DNA of 64,000 bases from Protonemura montana (Eukaryota > Arthropoda > Insecta > Plecoptera > Nemouridae). The DNA is taken from NCBI GenBank assembly GCA_947568835.1, contig OX387607.1, positions 16,791,701 to 16,855,700 on the forward strand, in the 5' to 3' direction. A model generated the notes under the pieces. It worked only from the letters and a program-made list of their open reading frames with translations. It searched no databases and had not been told where the DNA came from. This document shows, piece by piece, positions 50,238-55,599 of the stretch (position 1 is the stretch's first letter; every line of letters begins with the position of its first letter). The translations under genes were made by a program, and so were the position numbers.

Positions 50238-50262
50238 GTTGTTTGTTTGTTTGTTTATTGTT
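50238..50262 (-). repeat. LINE 3' terminal microsatellite tail
   Basis: Read on the minus strand: caataaacaaacaaacaaac, then aac. Short microsatellite tails mark the 3' end of CR1-like elements and probably guide target-primed reverse transcription. Confidence 0.75.
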
Positions 50263-50367
50263 TATTTTCCATTGTAAAAAATGATTACATGCCATGATCG
50301 TTGTCACATAAAACAGTAAAAACAGGCTTTGGAAATTGTCAATTGCTAATTAAAATTTGTACATTGA

Positions 50368-53265
50368 TCATTTTTGTTCTTTCACACAATATTTACAATC
50401 GCAACCATTCAGACTAGTATATTCTAAGATAGTGTAAAACGAATGTTGAATTAAAAAATCTTTGACCATTCCTTTAAAGCTTTCCATGCTAATTGTTTTT
50501 TCCTTTATCTTGCGGGGTAATTTATTGTATAAAATTGGTCCCATAAATGTTACATTCTTTCTCCCTATTTCTAACAAGCTTTTTTTTTGTCGTATATCGT
50601 CTTTTTTTCTAGTATTTTTATTGTGAATATTTTTGTTTTCTTGAAACATGGTCGGGTTGTCTCTAACATATAAAATTGTCTCTAGTATATAAAGGGAAGG
50701 TAATGTCAGTATGTTAAGGTCTTTGAACGCTTTTCTGCATGTGCCTCTTTTCATGATTTTTCCAAGTATTCTTATTGCCCTTTTTTGTTTAATGAATATT
50801 TTGTTGGACTCGGCTGATATTCCCCATACCATTATCCCATAATTTAATTTCGACTGTATATATGCGTGATACATTAATTTTAGTGTATTTTTGCTAACTT
50901 GATGAGATAGTCTTTGTAACATGAAGGATGCTGTGGCTAACTTTTTGCTTAGGATGTTGATGTGTGCCTTCCATTTTAAATTACCATCTATTTGTATTCC
51001 AAGGAAAGGGCTTTGGTACACTACTTTTGCATTTAATTTCTTGCTTGACGAAACTGTCATTTTTCCTTTGTTTTTGAACACTATGATGTTTGTTTTTTGA
51101 CAGTTTAGTTTCAGCTTGTTTGGTACGAACCATTCGTTCAAGTCTATAAGTGTGCTGTTTACGTTTTTTATTAATGTGTTATCATCGTCAGCGGTCAATA
51201 AAATGCTTGTGTCGTCTGCGAATAGAATTGCTTTCCGGTTGTCATCTCTGATATAATTGGGGAGGTCATTTACGTATAAACTAAAGAGAATTGCCGCTAG
51301 TGGGGCGCCTTGCGGGACTCCGGTTTTAATATCCTCTAAATCCGATAGCACACAGCCATTATTAGAGTTTATCGACACTCGTTGCTTTCGCCCCGTCAGG
51401 TATGACTCGATCCATTCCCCTGTCGTGCCTACTATGCCGTATCCTTTTAATTTTTCTAGAAGTATCTTGTGATTTATTGAATCAAAGGCTTTCGATAGAT
51501 CGCACATGATTGTTGCGATTGCTTTTTTATTTTCTAGTGCATCAGTGATTTGCCTTATCATACTGACAATTGCTGTATTTGTTGAGCGTCCCTTCCTGAA
51601 TCCGTGTTGTACTTCGTCTATAATTCTATTATTTTCTACATACTCATTTAGTCTGACAAGAAAAGCTTTCTCAAAAATTTTTGCAAAATTTGTTATGAGT
51701 GCTATTGGCCGGTAGTTCTGCATCTCTGAGGTAGCCCCTTTTTTCAGAATCGGTTTGATTATAGTAAGCTTCGCTAACGATGGGAATTCACCTGATCTAA
51801 ACGAGAAGTTGCAAATTTCTGACAGTGGGTAGGCTATTTCGTTACATACTCTCTTTATTACTTGGATCGGGACTTCATCCCACCCGGTTGATTTCTTATT
51901 TTTCAATTTTGTTATTATTTCTATAATTTCGGCCCTGTTCGTGTTCCTTAAAGTCATCGTTGTTTCGATTCTTGACATTCCCGTCTTCATTTTGGTGAGG
52001 CATTCATCCAGGGTATCTTCCATGTCATCTGTTGTTTTTTTTGCTATTGTCGCAAAAAAATTATTGAAGTGGTTTGCCACCTCTTTTGCGTCTTTGATTT
52101 CTTTTTCCTTGATTTCTAGGACGATGTTCTTTGTTCGATTTTTCTTGAATTTTCCAGTGTGTGCGTGTATTATTGTCCAAGCCGCCTTCATCTTCTTGTT
52201 TGCTTTATTGATAAAGCTGTCATTGCTTTTCTTTTTTGCTCGACGTGTTTGCTTGGTGACCATTTTCTGTGCTGCTTTAAGATCTTTTTTAAATCTTGCG
52301 CCGCCCTTTCTCCTAGTGAGTATCAATAATCTCCGTTTTAATTCGCATGTCAATTTTATTTCGGCTGTTATCCAGTCATTATTCTTCTTTCGTTGTCTGA
52401 CTTGACATCGTTTCTTCGGAAAGTGTTTGTTAAAGGTGTCTAGAAAGATTTCCAGGAAATTTCGGAACTTTTCATCTGTGGTGGTTCTCGCTAAGACACC
52501 TTCCCAATGTTTCCCTCCAATATCTTTTGCAAAGTTTTCCAGGTTTACATCGCTTATATTTCTAGTGTAGGTTAACTCTCGTTTTTTAATTATCGGTGAG
52601 ATTGTGATGTTTACCAGTAGTCCCACGTGGTCAGATAGCCCAGCTTCAATGGGGTGTGGCTCTTCGTCTAGTGTGAAGTTGGTAATAATGTTATCTATCG
52701 TTGTTCTTGTCCCTTCCGTAATTCTGGTGGGAAAATTGACATTGGCCCACATATTAATGTCTGCGAGGAGGTCTTCAAACTTCTCTCTGGAGTAGCTGTT
52801 TGTGTTTCCTAGCAGGTCAATGTTTATGTCACCTATGAGCACTATTCTTTTATCTTCTTTTTTGAGTTGCTTTATTAGTCGTTTTATTTTAATAATGAAG
52901 GCGTTGATATTTTTACTATCGGGTGTCCGGTACACCACAATAATAATTATCGGGTTGCTTTCTTTCAATTCGATGCTACATACTTCGAATACCCTTTCTT
53001 TTGCTAATTGGTCTATGTCAGGTCGGTTTATCCACTTTAATGTGGTGTCGCGGATGTATATAGCAGTCCCGCCACCTTTTGCCTTGTTTCGCGCATAGCA
53101 TGCGGCGAGTTCATAATCTCCAATTATTACTGCGTTCTCGCGTCCTCGTGCCAGCCAGTGTTCAGAGAGACATAAAATATCAATTTCCTTTTCTGGTGTT
53201 TGTGAGTCAATGAAAACTTCTAGCTCCTCTACCTTGTTTTGGACACTACATATGTTTAGGTGCAT
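50368..53265 (-). CDS. LINE ORF2: endonuclease and reverse transcriptase
   Basis: The ORF2 protein nicks target DNA and reverse-transcribes its own RNA at the nick. Counting from the ATG at 53265 (965 residues), the endonuclease/exonuclease/phosphatase domain spans about 1-220, with LNICS (3-7), SEHW (35-38), GDIN (145-148), DNIITN (191-196) and SDH (211-213). The reverse transcriptase spans about 445-760, with NYRPIAL (515-521), HGFRKGRST, the CDLSKAFD block, TGVPQGAPL and the FADD catalytic box near 680. The C-terminal part has an NTR motif and GPILYNKLP near 907-916, as in CR1/Jockey-type ORF2, and ends CDCKYC. All key acidic residues are present. The frame stays open for 96 codons upstream of this ATG up to the ORF1 UAG, and the first endonuclease strand probably begins there. 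The true protein may therefore be an ORF1-ORF2 readthrough product. Confidence 0.95.
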   Translation of the reverse strand: MHLNICSVQNKVEELEVFIDSQTPEKEIDILCLSEHWLARGRENAVIIGDYELAACYARNKAKGGGTAIYIRDTTLKWINRPDIDQLAKERVFEVCSIELKESNPIIIIVVYRTPDSKNINAFIIKIKRLIKQLKKEDKRIVLIGDINIDLLGNTNSYSREKFEDLLADINMWANVNFPTRITEGTRTTIDNIITNFTLDEEPHPIEAGLSDHVGLLVNITISPIIKKRELTYTRNISDVNLENFAKDIGGKHWEGVLARTTTDEKFRNFLEIFLDTFNKHFPKKRCQVRQRKKNNDWITAEIKLTCELKRRLLILTRRKGGARFKKDLKAAQKMVTKQTRRAKKKSNDSFINKANKKMKAAWTIIHAHTGKFKKNRTKNIVLEIKEKEIKDAKEVANHFNNFFATIAKKTTDDMEDTLDECLTKMKTGMSRIETTMTLRNTNRAEIIEIITKLKNKKSTGWDEVPIQVIKRVCNEIAYPLSEICNFSFRSGEFPSLAKLTIIKPILKKGATSEMQNYRPIALITNFAKIFEKAFLVRLNEYVENNRIIDEVQHGFRKGRSTNTAIVSMIRQITDALENKKAIATIMCDLSKAFDSINHKILLEKLKGYGIVGTTGEWIESYLTGRKQRVSINSNNGCVLSDLEDIKTGVPQGAPLAAILFSLYVNDLPNYIRDDNRKAILFADDTSILLTADDDNTLIKNVNSTLIDLNEWFVPNKLKLNCQKTNIIVFKNKGKMTVSSSKKLNAKVVYQSPFLGIQIDGNLKWKAHINILSKKLATASFMLQRLSHQVSKNTLKLMYHAYIQSKLNYGIMVWGISAESNKIFIKQKRAIRILGKIMKRGTCRKAFKDLNILTLPSLYILETILYVRDNPTMFQENKNIHNKNTRKKDDIRQKKSLLEIGRKNVTFMGPILYNKLPRKIKEKTISMESFKGMVKDFLIQHSFYTILEYTSLNGCDCKYCVKEQK

Positions 53266-53609
53266 TATAGTAATGTTTGTTGACTTACGTGTATCAGTCT
53301 TCTTTTCTTTATTCTTATTCTTATATCGATCAGTCTTCTTCTTATCAGTCTTACTTGAATCAGTCTTCTTTTTGTTTTTGTCAGTCTCTTCAGTTTCTTC
53401 AGTCTCTTCAGTTTCTTCAGTCTTTTTTGTCTCTTCAGTCTCTTCTTTGTCTTTCTCCTGCTTTTCAGTAGTTTTTTCATATGTATATGGTAACGTTGTT
53501 TCACTAACGTGTGTGACTGTGCTAATCTTGCGTGGCCTATTAATAAGTAATTGCTATATTTCCGACTCGCTGTTGTCTTCGTTTTCGTTTTCTTCTTCCA
53601 GTGCTTCAT
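53265..53609 (-). CDS. Small overlapping basic frame between ORF1 and ORF2 (doubtful gene)
   Basis: An ATG at 53609, inside the end of ORF1 and shifted +1 from it, opens 114 codons. It ends at TAA overlapping the ORF2 start as TAATG (53267-53263). The product would be extremely Lys/Arg/Leu-rich, because the same act-gaa-gag repeats are read in another frame. It may be an artefact of the low-complexity tract. Alternatively it could bring ribosomes to the ORF2 ATG by termination-reinitiation, as the UAAUG overlap does in the silkworm SART1 LINE. Confidence 0.25.
   Translation of the reverse strand: MKHWKKKTKTKTTASRKYSNYLLIGHARLAQSHTLVKQRYHIHMKKLLKSRRKTKKRLKRQKRLKKLKRLKKLKRLTKTKRRLIQVRLIRRRLIDIRIRIKKRRLIHVSQQTLL
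53266..53553 (-). other. In-frame linker between ORF1 and ORF2 (96 sense codons)
   Basis: I checked every codon from the UAG (53556-53554) to the ORF2 ATG (53265): all 96 are sense codons. The start is CAA TTA CTT ATT AAT AGG. The middle encodes a Glu/Thr/Lys-rich stretch (TEETEETEETE type, from act-gaa-gag repeats), followed by Lys/Asp/Thr repeats. The end encodes NITI immediately before MHLNICS. Such a low-complexity, charged linker would suit a flexible joint in a fusion protein. It has no ATG in this frame, so it can be translated only by readthrough, frameshifting or a non-AUG start. Confidence 0.85.
53546..53556 (-). promoter_or_regulatory. Leaky stop signal UAG CAA UUA
   Basis: On the minus strand the ORF1 stop codon and its 3' context read TAG CAA TTA (53556-53548). 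This exactly fits the UAG CAR YYA readthrough consensus first defined for tobacco mosaic virus. ORF2 lies downstream in the same frame with no further stop, so readthrough would produce a fusion of about 1475 residues (413 + 1 + 96 + 965). Confidence 0.7.
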
Positions 53610-54795
53610 CCACTTTCTCTAATATAAGTTGGCTAAGGTAGAACCCACCTCTGCGGTTTAGATGCAGTCCATCTTTTGCTCTTTCGTGTGCTGTGACTCT
53701 CGTGTTCGGATTATAGAATATTGCACCTCTTTCTTCACATAGCCACTGTAGGCCGTCGTTGAGCTTGTCAATGGTCGAGTCGAATACATTGCGCCTATAC
53801 ACCAGTCCCCCAATGACCCACTTTGCGTTTTTCCACTTCCTGGACACTGTTTCGACGAGATCGTCGAACTCGGTCACCAGATGAACCTTGGATCTGGATT
53901 TTATGTTATTGGTACCTGTATGTACGACGATAACCTTTGGTTCACTTTCACTTTCTTGTTTCAAGCATAGTTGCTTCTTTAGATCTTTCACCCGAATGCC
54001 AGGAAACACAGCTACTTCGCACCCTTCTCTAGTGCATATTTCGCCTGCGCCCCTTATAATGGAGTCACCCACTAGCATCGCTGTGCTTGACGCGTATTTT
54101 GGAGCTTGATGTGTTTCCACTACTGCTTCTGCCTGGGAAGTTTTTTGTTGAATTAACCTTCTGTACTTGTTGTCTCTTATAATTTTGATCTCATCAGGCG
54201 TGAATTTGTTGTCTGTGCCTTGCAATTGCCTCGGTTCATCGCTTTCGTGGTCTTTTATGGACATTTGCTTGTCATTTACTTGATTGTTTGTTTTTGAGTT
54301 TCTTTTCGGCGGGGGGGTTTCAAATCGCTCCACCATTTTGTGCACTCGCGATTGTTCTGCCTCCTGTAGTCGTTTGACAGGACTACATTTTTCTTCTATA
54401 GCTGGTGATTTATCAGCGAGTGGCTTATCACTGAAAATGTCTACGTTTTTTGAAAGCTCATCTACTTTAAATCTAAGTAGCTCGTTTATTTCTTCTAGGT
54501 TTTGTATTCTTTTCTCTTTTTCGTTAATCAGTCTGTCATTGTATCTTTGATTGTTTTGGTTTCGTCCTACCTCATCAGCTGTTTCTATGTTTCCGTTTGC
54601 TCTGACATGCTCTTCCAGTAGATCGAATCTTGCTGCCTTCATTCGTTCTACTAATTCTTCCTTTCTTCCACCTTTGGAGAGGCCAAGTTTCTCCAGCTCC
54701 TTCTGAAGTTCGCACTTGTTTAATTTCACTAAAATCTCGGTAAAACCGCAAATATCACGGAGCACACACAAAGCTGCACCACTCTCGTCGGCCAT
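53554..54795 (-). CDS. LINE ORF1: SAP-like and SGNH-esterase protein
   Basis: I start at the ATG at 54795 (context aagATGG), because the 12 upstream in-frame codons contain no ATG. The product is 413 residues. Residues 22-54 (LVKLNKCELQKELEKLGLSK and following) resemble a SAP/LEM-type helix-loop-helix nucleic-acid-binding motif. Residues 88-118 form a probable coiled coil, followed by a charged linker. An SGNH/GDSL hydrolase domain spans about 236-400, with GDS (243-245, nucleophile Ser245), GTNN (294-297) and D375-x-x-H378. ORF1 esterases are known in CR1-type LINEs; their role is unclear, and binding of RNA or lipid has been proposed. There is no zinc knuckle. ORF1 ends with an acidic tail and a UAG in leaky context. 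Confidence 0.9.
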   Translation of the reverse strand: MADESGAALCVLRDICGFTEILVKLNKCELQKELEKLGLSKGGRKEELVERMKAARFDLLEEHVRANGNIETADEVGRNQNNQRYNDRLINEKEKRIQNLEEINELLRFKVDELSKNVDIFSDKPLADKSPAIEEKCSPVKRLQEAEQSRVHKMVERFETPPPKRNSKTNNQVNDKQMSIKDHESDEPRQLQGTDNKFTPDEIKIIRDNKYRRLIQQKTSQAEAVVETHQAPKYASSTAMLVGDSIIRGAGEICTREGCEVAVFPGIRVKDLKKQLCLKQESESEPKVIVVHTGTNNIKSRSKVHLVTEFDDLVETVSRKWKNAKWVIGGLVYRRNVFDSTIDKLNDGLQWLCEERGAIFYNPNTRVTAHERAKDGLHLNRRGGFYLSQLILEKVDEALEEENENEDNSESEI

Positions 54796-54850
54796 CTTGT
54801 CACTCCTATGTTTAATACGTAGGCATGGCAACGTATGTTTAATAATAACT

Positions 54851-54966
54851 TATGTCTGAAAGTTGCGAGGTATTCATTTGTAATTGAGGTAAAAGCGAAT
54901 CACTTAATTTCATTACAAACGGAACCACTGGGAAGGTGTGGTTGACCACAAACCTCTGGGGCAACG
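54851..54966. other. Flank of the LINE 5' end
   Basis: Unique-looking DNA between the LINE 5' region and the 10-bp array. No target duplication could be matched with the 3' flank. Confidence 0.4.
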
Positions 54967-55597
54967 TCTATCCACTGTTTATCCACGTCTATCCACTGTT
55001 TATCCACGTTTATACACGTTTATCCACTGTTTATCCACGTTTATACACGTCTATCCACGTTTATCCACGTTTATCCACGTTTATCCACGTTTATCCACGT
55101 TTATCCACGTTTATCCACGTTTATCCACGTCTATCCACTGTTTATCCACGTTTATACACGTCTATCCACTGTTTATCCACGTTTATCCACGTCTATCCAC
55201 TGTTTATCCACGTTTATCCACGTCTATCCACGTCTATCCACTGTTTATCCACGTTTATCCACGTTTATCCACTGTTTATCCACGTTTATCCACGTTTATC
55301 CACTGTTTATCCACGTTTATCCACGTTTATTCACTGTTTATCCACGTTTATCCATGTTTGTCCACGTTTATCCACGTTTATCCACGTTTATCCACGTCTA
55401 TCCACTGTTTATCCACGTTTATTCACTTTTTATCCACGTTTATCCACGTTTATCCACGTTGATCCACTGTTTATCCACGTTTATTCACTGTTTATCCACG
55501 TTTATCCACGTTTATCCACGTTTATCCACGTTTATCCACGTTTATCCACGTTTGTCCACGTTTATCCACGTTTATCCACTGTTTATCCACGTTTATC
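54967..55597. repeat. 10-bp minisatellite (tttatccacg) with 13-bp variants
   Basis: About 60 units of tttatccacg or ctatccacg, interspersed with cactgtttatcca insertions. The basic 10-bp period equals about one helical turn. Several overlapping open frames (HVYPRLST type) are artefacts. Confidence 0.95.
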
Positions 55598-55599
55598 CA

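Follow-up and report, generated by a model that had tools for sequence, protein, structure and literature searches.

Many LINE families of Protonemura montana appear to make reverse transcriptase by reading through a weak stop codon of the tobacco mosaic virus type, and related LINEs bear frameshift-like signals

A stretch of 64,000 nucleotides from the plecopteran Protonemura montana (contig OX387607.1, positions 16,791,701 to 16,855,700; hereafter the window) carries on its minus strand one intact copy of a long interspersed nuclear element (LINE), extending from approximately position 54805 to 50239. The element is placed by its ORF2, with EEP and RVT_1 domains, and its SGNH-bearing ORF1 as a probable CR1/L2-like LINE of the Jockey superfamily. 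Its two open reading frames (ORFs) share one frame and are parted by a single TAG, beyond which the frame runs on into the endonuclease and reverse transcriptase. Re-reading of the minus strand gave the junction exactly as described in the first-pass annotation: ORF1 ends in TAG followed by CAA TTA (53556-53548), and 96 sense codons without an ATG (53553-53266) precede the ATG of ORF2. It is highly probable that the window LINE expresses ORF2 as a C-terminal extension of ORF1 by readthrough of UAG CAR YYA. The arrangement is conserved over many LINE families of this genome and is present in recently moved copies.

Junctions were compared across 88 loci, examined in sets of 30 (from the search with ORF1 as query), 18 and 40. 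Sampling of the genome was partial: the ORF1 query gave 80 matches and the endonuclease 132, with 131 of 499 candidates scored. Once the start of the endonuclease had been located using a hidden Markov model (HMM), its frame was followed upstream to the first stop, which was recorded. Three loci were without an endonuclease match (85 with) and two more were without an upstream stop, leaving 83 classified. TAG followed by CARYYA stood at the nearest upstream stop of 34 of these, in a further 20 the script placed ORF2 at -1 and recognised A_AAA_AAC, G_GGA_AAC or U_UUU_UUA within the overlap, and the other 29 fell into neither class. A motif-blind criterion, requiring at least 100 open codons upstream of the stop in the same frame as the endonuclease, picked 31 loci representing 18 families, the families having been grouped by the author from pairwise identity and all coming from one genome. 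TAG with CARYYA was found at 29 of the 31 loci and in 16 of the 18 families. This retention of the leaky context by same-frame loci supports the proposal, made initially for the window copy alone, of an ORF1-ORF2 fusion produced at low ratio.

Conservation of the signal was assessed using 21 family representatives, comprising the 16 families of the motif-blind criterion together with the decayed or partial L032, L045, L049, L052 and L093; the motif itself served to locate L045 and L052. The representatives read TAG CA(A/G)(T/C)(T/C)A, with TAG in all 21. Information content at positions +1 to +9 was 2.0, 2.0, 2.0, 2.0, 2.0, 1.55, 1.0, 1.0 and 2.0 bits, whereas each of 43 flanking positions held 0.53 bits or less and was near random. 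R was A in 19 representatives and G in two, and each Y was T or C about equally. The expectation that the signal would be conserved while its surroundings varied was thus borne out within this genome, with changes only where the consensus permits them. Since the second codon past the TAG encodes Leu, Ser or Pro, it is the nucleotides and not the peptide that are conserved, and the pattern at TAGCARYYA is, on this comparison, as expected under selection on an RNA signal. On the element strand, all frames taken together, the 16 representatives from the motif-blind criterion contain 443 TAG triplets; CARYYA follows 19, and 16 of those 19 are the junctions. Chance occurrence of the motif in a single element was rejected on the basis of the conservation over 21 representatives and the counts under the motif-blind criterion. 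In an OPRL1 reporter, CARYYA gave approximately 15% readthrough with UGA, a similar value with UAG and a much lower one with UAA (PMC4132726; this and the other papers given by PMC number are cited from excerpts). The presence of TAG in every representative fits this order of UAG = UGA >> UAA. Folding of the 90 nucleotides past the signal revealed nothing consistent among the 16 families (z -1.59 to 1.95; pseudoknots and long-range pairing lie outside the model). Type I readthrough is described as acting by primary sequence (PMC3542737).

One stop alone parts the ORF1 and ORF2 frames in the 16 families, the linkers being 16-124 codons long and 887 codons in total. The product of the chances of encountering no in-frame stop was 2.8e-24 (mononucleotide shuffle per linker, values floored at 1/2000), although this is no independent test, as openness in frame 0 was part of how the stop was chosen. 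The linker of the window copy, which is rich in purines, is open across its 96 codons in the +1 frame as well, and openness in a single copy is therefore weak evidence. The open linker was rejected as evidence by itself for this reason and because openness follows from choosing the nearest stop.

Other LINEs are described as reaching ORF2 by initiating anew: LINE-1 and SART1 as users of termination-reinitiation (PMC5972666), and Zorro3 as requiring its ORF2 ATG (PMC1965478). In the present families, ribosomes might similarly begin ORF2 within the linker, at an AUG or near-cognate codon, by reinitiation or internal entry, with the stop context being incidental, and an in-frame ATG does lie within the linker of 7 of the 16 families, for which reinitiation is possible. 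This explanation does not account for the common frame or for TAG with CARYYA in 16 of 18 same-frame families. Moreover, 9 of the 16 families have no in-frame ATG ahead of the endonuclease, and six (L037, L047, L085, L097, L100 and L103) also have none within its first 17 residues, so that AUG initiation in these six would lose a conserved Asn which we take to be catalytic. Initiation within the linker is accordingly considered improbable as the general route.

The genome (258 Mb, 34 contigs) was searched with 1001 bases of DNA across the window junction, yielding 17 matches, of which six, including the window copy, cover the entire query at 100%. Across 2.7 kb these six copies share 99.5-100% identity: one or two positions separate four of them from the window copy, and L027 differs by an indel of approximately 9 bases and a few substitutions. 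Five of the six open with GAGTGACAAG ahead of the ORF1 ATG, L030 sharing only about 7 bases with one mismatch, and all six carry an (ACAA)n tail. A target-site duplication was discerned by eye in one of them (C11). As the flanks differ between these near-identical copies, the element bearing the TAG CAA TTA stop must have moved recently. Copies at 99.5-100% identity occur at different loci in six families (window, L035/36, L037/38, L039/40, L041-43 and L047/48) and all carry the signal, indicating that it was signal-bearing elements that moved. Splicing of the element RNA, by which the stop would be removed and ORF1 joined to ORF2, would not conserve UAG plus the next six bases, and progeny of a spliced RNA would lose the stop, yet the six near-identical genomic copies retain it; such splicing is scarcely credible.

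To judge from the sequences, related LINEs of this genome use two or more recoding modes, the readthrough junction among them. Copies with ORF2 in a different frame had been regarded in the first-pass annotation as telling against a fusion. Such families exist, 25 in the author's grouping; 16 of the 25 carry a canonical -1 heptamer, which offers another route to the same fusion; none was recognised in the other nine. In seven of the 16 the heptamer adjoins the ORF1 stop on its upstream side and ORF2 is at -1, the heptamer being A_AAA_AAC in L033, L060 and L067 and G_GGA_AAC in L061, L062, L066 and L072. Loci with either heptamer adjoining the stop are L033, L034, L057, L060, L061, L062, L064, L066, L067, L068 and L072; those of L060 and L061, both decayed, were recognised by eye, the endonuclease of L061 now being in another frame and L060 having a stop in the linker. 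The remaining nine are SGNH families with U_UUU_UUA within the overlap (L069-L071, L081, L083, L086, L088, L091, L094, L095 and L107), the HIV-type slippery site T_TTT_TTA, in the context ACT TTT TTA GA in eight and ATT TTT TTA GA in one. On this evidence the -1 families look like cases of frameshifting at X XXY YYZ sites. Folding of the 90 nucleotides downstream in 18 families gave z values of -3.35 (L072), -2.29 (L069) and -1.79 to 1.94 for the other 16, with pseudoknots again outside the model. In L033, L050, L054, L060 and L061 a run of five G starts at nucleotide 11-13, the count beginning with the first base of the ORF1 stop, and in these five -1 families is perhaps part of a stimulatory structure.

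The readthrough signal stands behind more than one kind of ORF1. ORF1s of the SAP-SGNH type precede it in the window family, L032, L035, L037, L039, L041, L044, L045, L047, L049 and L052, the domains having been checked by Pfam in the window copy only and assigned in the other families by similarity. SGNH ORF1s with a downstream FLDxW-like tail precede it in L074 and L093 (placed by tree; L074 is without a Pfam match), and zinc-knuckle ORF1s in L079, L085, L097, L098, L100, L103, L105 and L106. The pattern CX2CX4HX4C was recognised by eye in all eight zinc-knuckle ORF1s; Pfam zf-CCHC was slightly below cut-off for L085 and L098 and gave no match for the other six. Within the FLDxW group, the nine families with U_UUU_UUA have ORF2 at -1, whereas the same-frame members L074 and the decayed L093 are without this heptamer and read TAG CAACTA and TAG CAATCA, respectively; at the heptamer position they have ACA CTT ATA GAC and ACA CTG GAC. 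As read here, the members that carry the readthrough signal no longer have the slippery site. In a tree of 31 SGNH ORF1 rows the readthrough label changes at least three times, and L093 (readthrough) is sister to L094 (U_UUU_UUA) with support of 95/89, L094 filling only 31% of the columns.

Modules have also been exchanged. L067 and L068 are 100% identical over 633 nucleotides of ORF1 and junction and thereafter possess different ORF2s, and L068 and L106 are 99.3% identical over 149 nucleotides of linker and ORF2. L106 combines a zinc-knuckle ORF1 with TAG CAACCA and L068 an SGNH ORF1 with A_AAA_AAC; the same ORF2 would thus be reached by two recoding modes, with the signal going with ORF1. 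Exchange of ORF1 between lineages of this superfamily has already been described (PMC4120745). These relationships also bear on whether one old junction was simply inherited without selection. The families are related and the readthrough label is clustered on the ORF1 tree, as common descent would have it, but descent alone would not leave CARYYA varying only at R, Y and Y between flanks that have diverged to near randomness, nor place the signal behind two distinct ORF1 types, SGNH and zinc knuckle, nor require the repeated label changes within the SGNH tree. Shared ancestry as the whole explanation is regarded as very unlikely. It is probable that this assemblage of LINEs depends on ribosomal recoding, ORF2 protein being made solely in fusion with ORF1, that the signal travels with ORF1, that lineages have repeatedly exchanged UAG-CARYYA readthrough for one or other of two forms of -1 frameshifting or the reverse, and that the logic of Gag-Pol expression has arisen in non-LTR (long terminal repeat) elements too.

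A number of observations weigh against these conclusions. Among the 29 loci of 83 assigned by script to neither class are copies that have decayed or been interrupted or truncated (such as L046, L052, L056, L078, L092, L099, L110 and L111), heptamer families missed by the script (L060, with its further linker stop, and the decayed L061), families showing G GAA AAC, intact or decayed, ahead of the stop (L050/L063 and L054/L055/L058), -1 overlaps in which no heptamer was recognised (L076, L080, L090, L101/L113, L104, L108 and L109) and the TAG GACATC type (L089/L096/L102). In L096 and L102 the same-frame openness lies in a low-complexity Gln/His-repeat region and the true ORF1 frame is unclear; their relative L089 has the same TAG GACATC. 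Additional linker stops, a further feature held to argue against readthrough, do occur in L052, L056 and L078, but next to readthrough-type relatives: L052 and L056 were placed by hand as readthrough families despite being among the 29, and L078, with its extra TAG, is 99.4% identical to L079. To these are added the linker ATGs of seven families, the A_AAA_AAC present in the +1 frame of L044 besides TAG CAGCTA, and the fact that the families are all related and from one genome and are thus not independent trials. As a separate observation, the UAG followed by G in L089, L096 and L102 is reminiscent of type III readthrough.

The features of the window element are listed in Table 1. A Pfam scan of the element gave no match to RNase H, protease or integrase, and no solved structure matched the endonuclease by sequence at E 1. 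A search of a protein collection with ORF1 gave five matches, one of them partial and the other four spanning 95-98% of the query with 40-60% identity. Among viral contigs, 79 pattern matches included no confirmed relative.

Table 1. Features of the LINE copy in the window and the basis on which each was assigned.
Feature	Position	Strand	Basis
Whole LINE copy	50239..54805	-	Limits shared by copies on different contigs; outer ends accurate to a few bases
Element 5' end, GAGTGACAAG, adjoining ORF1 ATG	~54796-54805	-	Comparison of copies
ORF1, 413 codons, ATG at 54795	53557..54795	-	Reading of frames
SAP domain, ORF1	54643..54729	-	Pfam PF02037, E 7.5e-7
SGNH/GDSL esterase domain, ORF1	53647..54006	-	Pfam PF13472, E 1.1e-7, at curated cut-off
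Putative leaky TAG stop of ORF1	53554..53556	-	Read in sequence; TAG in 21/21 family representatives
CAATTA, predicted CAR YYA type I readthrough signal	53548..53553	-	Sequence and consensus over families
In-frame linker, 96 codons, Lys/Glu/Thr-rich, without ATG	53266..53553	-	Opens with the two codons of CAR YYA
9-bp tandem repeat within linker	53381-53445	-	Repeat in window copy
First in-frame ATG past TAG	53263..53265	-	Residue 4 of conserved endonuclease start
Endonuclease (EEP) domain, ORF2	52627..53274	-	Pfam PF03372, E 2.6e-6, stretch 53196-52627; N-terminal start 53274 from HMM built here
Reverse transcriptase domain, ORF2	51022..51750	-	Pfam PF00078, E 1.8e-31
TGA stop of ORF2	50368..50370	-	Frame stays open from TAG to TGA
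Element 3' end, (ACAA)n tail	toward 50239	-	Comparison of copies

Only about 10 nucleotides (54796-54805) precede the first ATG of the full-length element, and the promoter is therefore presumably internal or supplied by the flank. Approximately 160 bases upstream of the LINE lies a minisatellite of about 62 copies of the 10-bp unit ACGTTTATCC (window 54964-55599), which is considered to be outside the element because the flanks shown for the other five copies are without it. Elsewhere in the genome, L082 and L044 each show a tandem pair of endonuclease N-termini sharing a frame, as though the beginning of ORF2 had been doubled by template switching. Close to a contig end, copies of an SGNH LINE follow one another on C15 (14-58 kb, spacings 11.4, 11.4 and 19.9 kb) and C23 (26-41 kb, 14.5 kb), as if within a repeated unit; L064 is one of these and L062 a related copy on C1. 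Copies of mitochondrial COX1 are present on C4 at 5.39-5.78 Mb (L114), one scoring the same as the copy on C34, which may be the mitochondrial contig. COX1 was read with the invertebrate mitochondrial code and, judged by eye, is probably that of an arthropod.

In the proposed mechanism, release factors and near-cognate tRNA would compete at the UAG, with CARYYA weakening termination. Most ribosomes would halt there and release the SAP-SGNH ORF1 protein, and a minority would insert an amino acid because CAR YYA comes next, cross the charged linker and yield a fusion of ORF1 protein, linker, endonuclease and reverse transcriptase. By analogy with retroviruses, the likely benefit would be a fixed, low dose of reverse transcriptase entering particles of ORF1 protein and RNA by co-assembly. 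From the junction sequences we infer that readthrough occurs, and its rate and benefit are envisaged on the same footing.

The closest likeness is to the type I readthrough of tobamoviruses, which share the stop codon, all six 3' bases and an in-frame, polymerase-bearing extension; the users named in the excerpts of PMC3542737 are plant viruses, whereas here the extension is the endonuclease-reverse transcriptase of a LINE. Gag-Pol of murine leukaemia virus is similar in that reverse transcriptase forms a minor extension past one in-frame UAG, but its signal requires a 3' pseudoknot (PMC3542737) where the LINE has a linear CARYYA, and the window element is a non-LTR element in which protease and integrase were not matched. 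Other retroviruses use -1 frameshifting (PMC5009743). CR1/L2-like LINEs such as ZfL2-1 have the same SGNH ORF1, EEP endonuclease and reverse transcriptase, although no link between their ORFs by readthrough or frameshifting is mentioned in the literature excerpted. Leaky stops before pol have been proposed for the LTR retrotransposons Tca2 and VdLTRE5; these stops are UGA, unlike the UAG here (PMC2194720, PMC3441728), both elements are reported to be without CARYYA in the excerpts of PMC3441728, and a test on Tca2 found no readthrough (PMC7175516). Other routes in the literature excerpted include a 2A peptide in L1Tc and, in HeT-A, a frameshift that its gag gene requires. Neither a readthrough LINE nor an X XXY YYZ link between LINE ORFs was found in excerpts of the open-licence literature, including PMC3905857, subscription papers and Repbase reports being outside its scope, and priority for readthrough in a LINE is not proven.

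Expression of the second protein is unsettled in many groups of LINEs, having been ascribed in the literature excerpted to reinitiation, an ORF2 ATG or 2A peptides, or being unknown. A nine-base signal would make the question testable, since it leads one to expect a particular proportion of ORF1 protein to fusion, a means of entry of reverse transcriptase into the particle and a dependence on release factors and near-cognate tRNAs. The motif may be searched for in any LINE library, and the genome of P. montana offers for comparison a set of related LINE proteins among which readthrough and frameshifting appear to replace each other.

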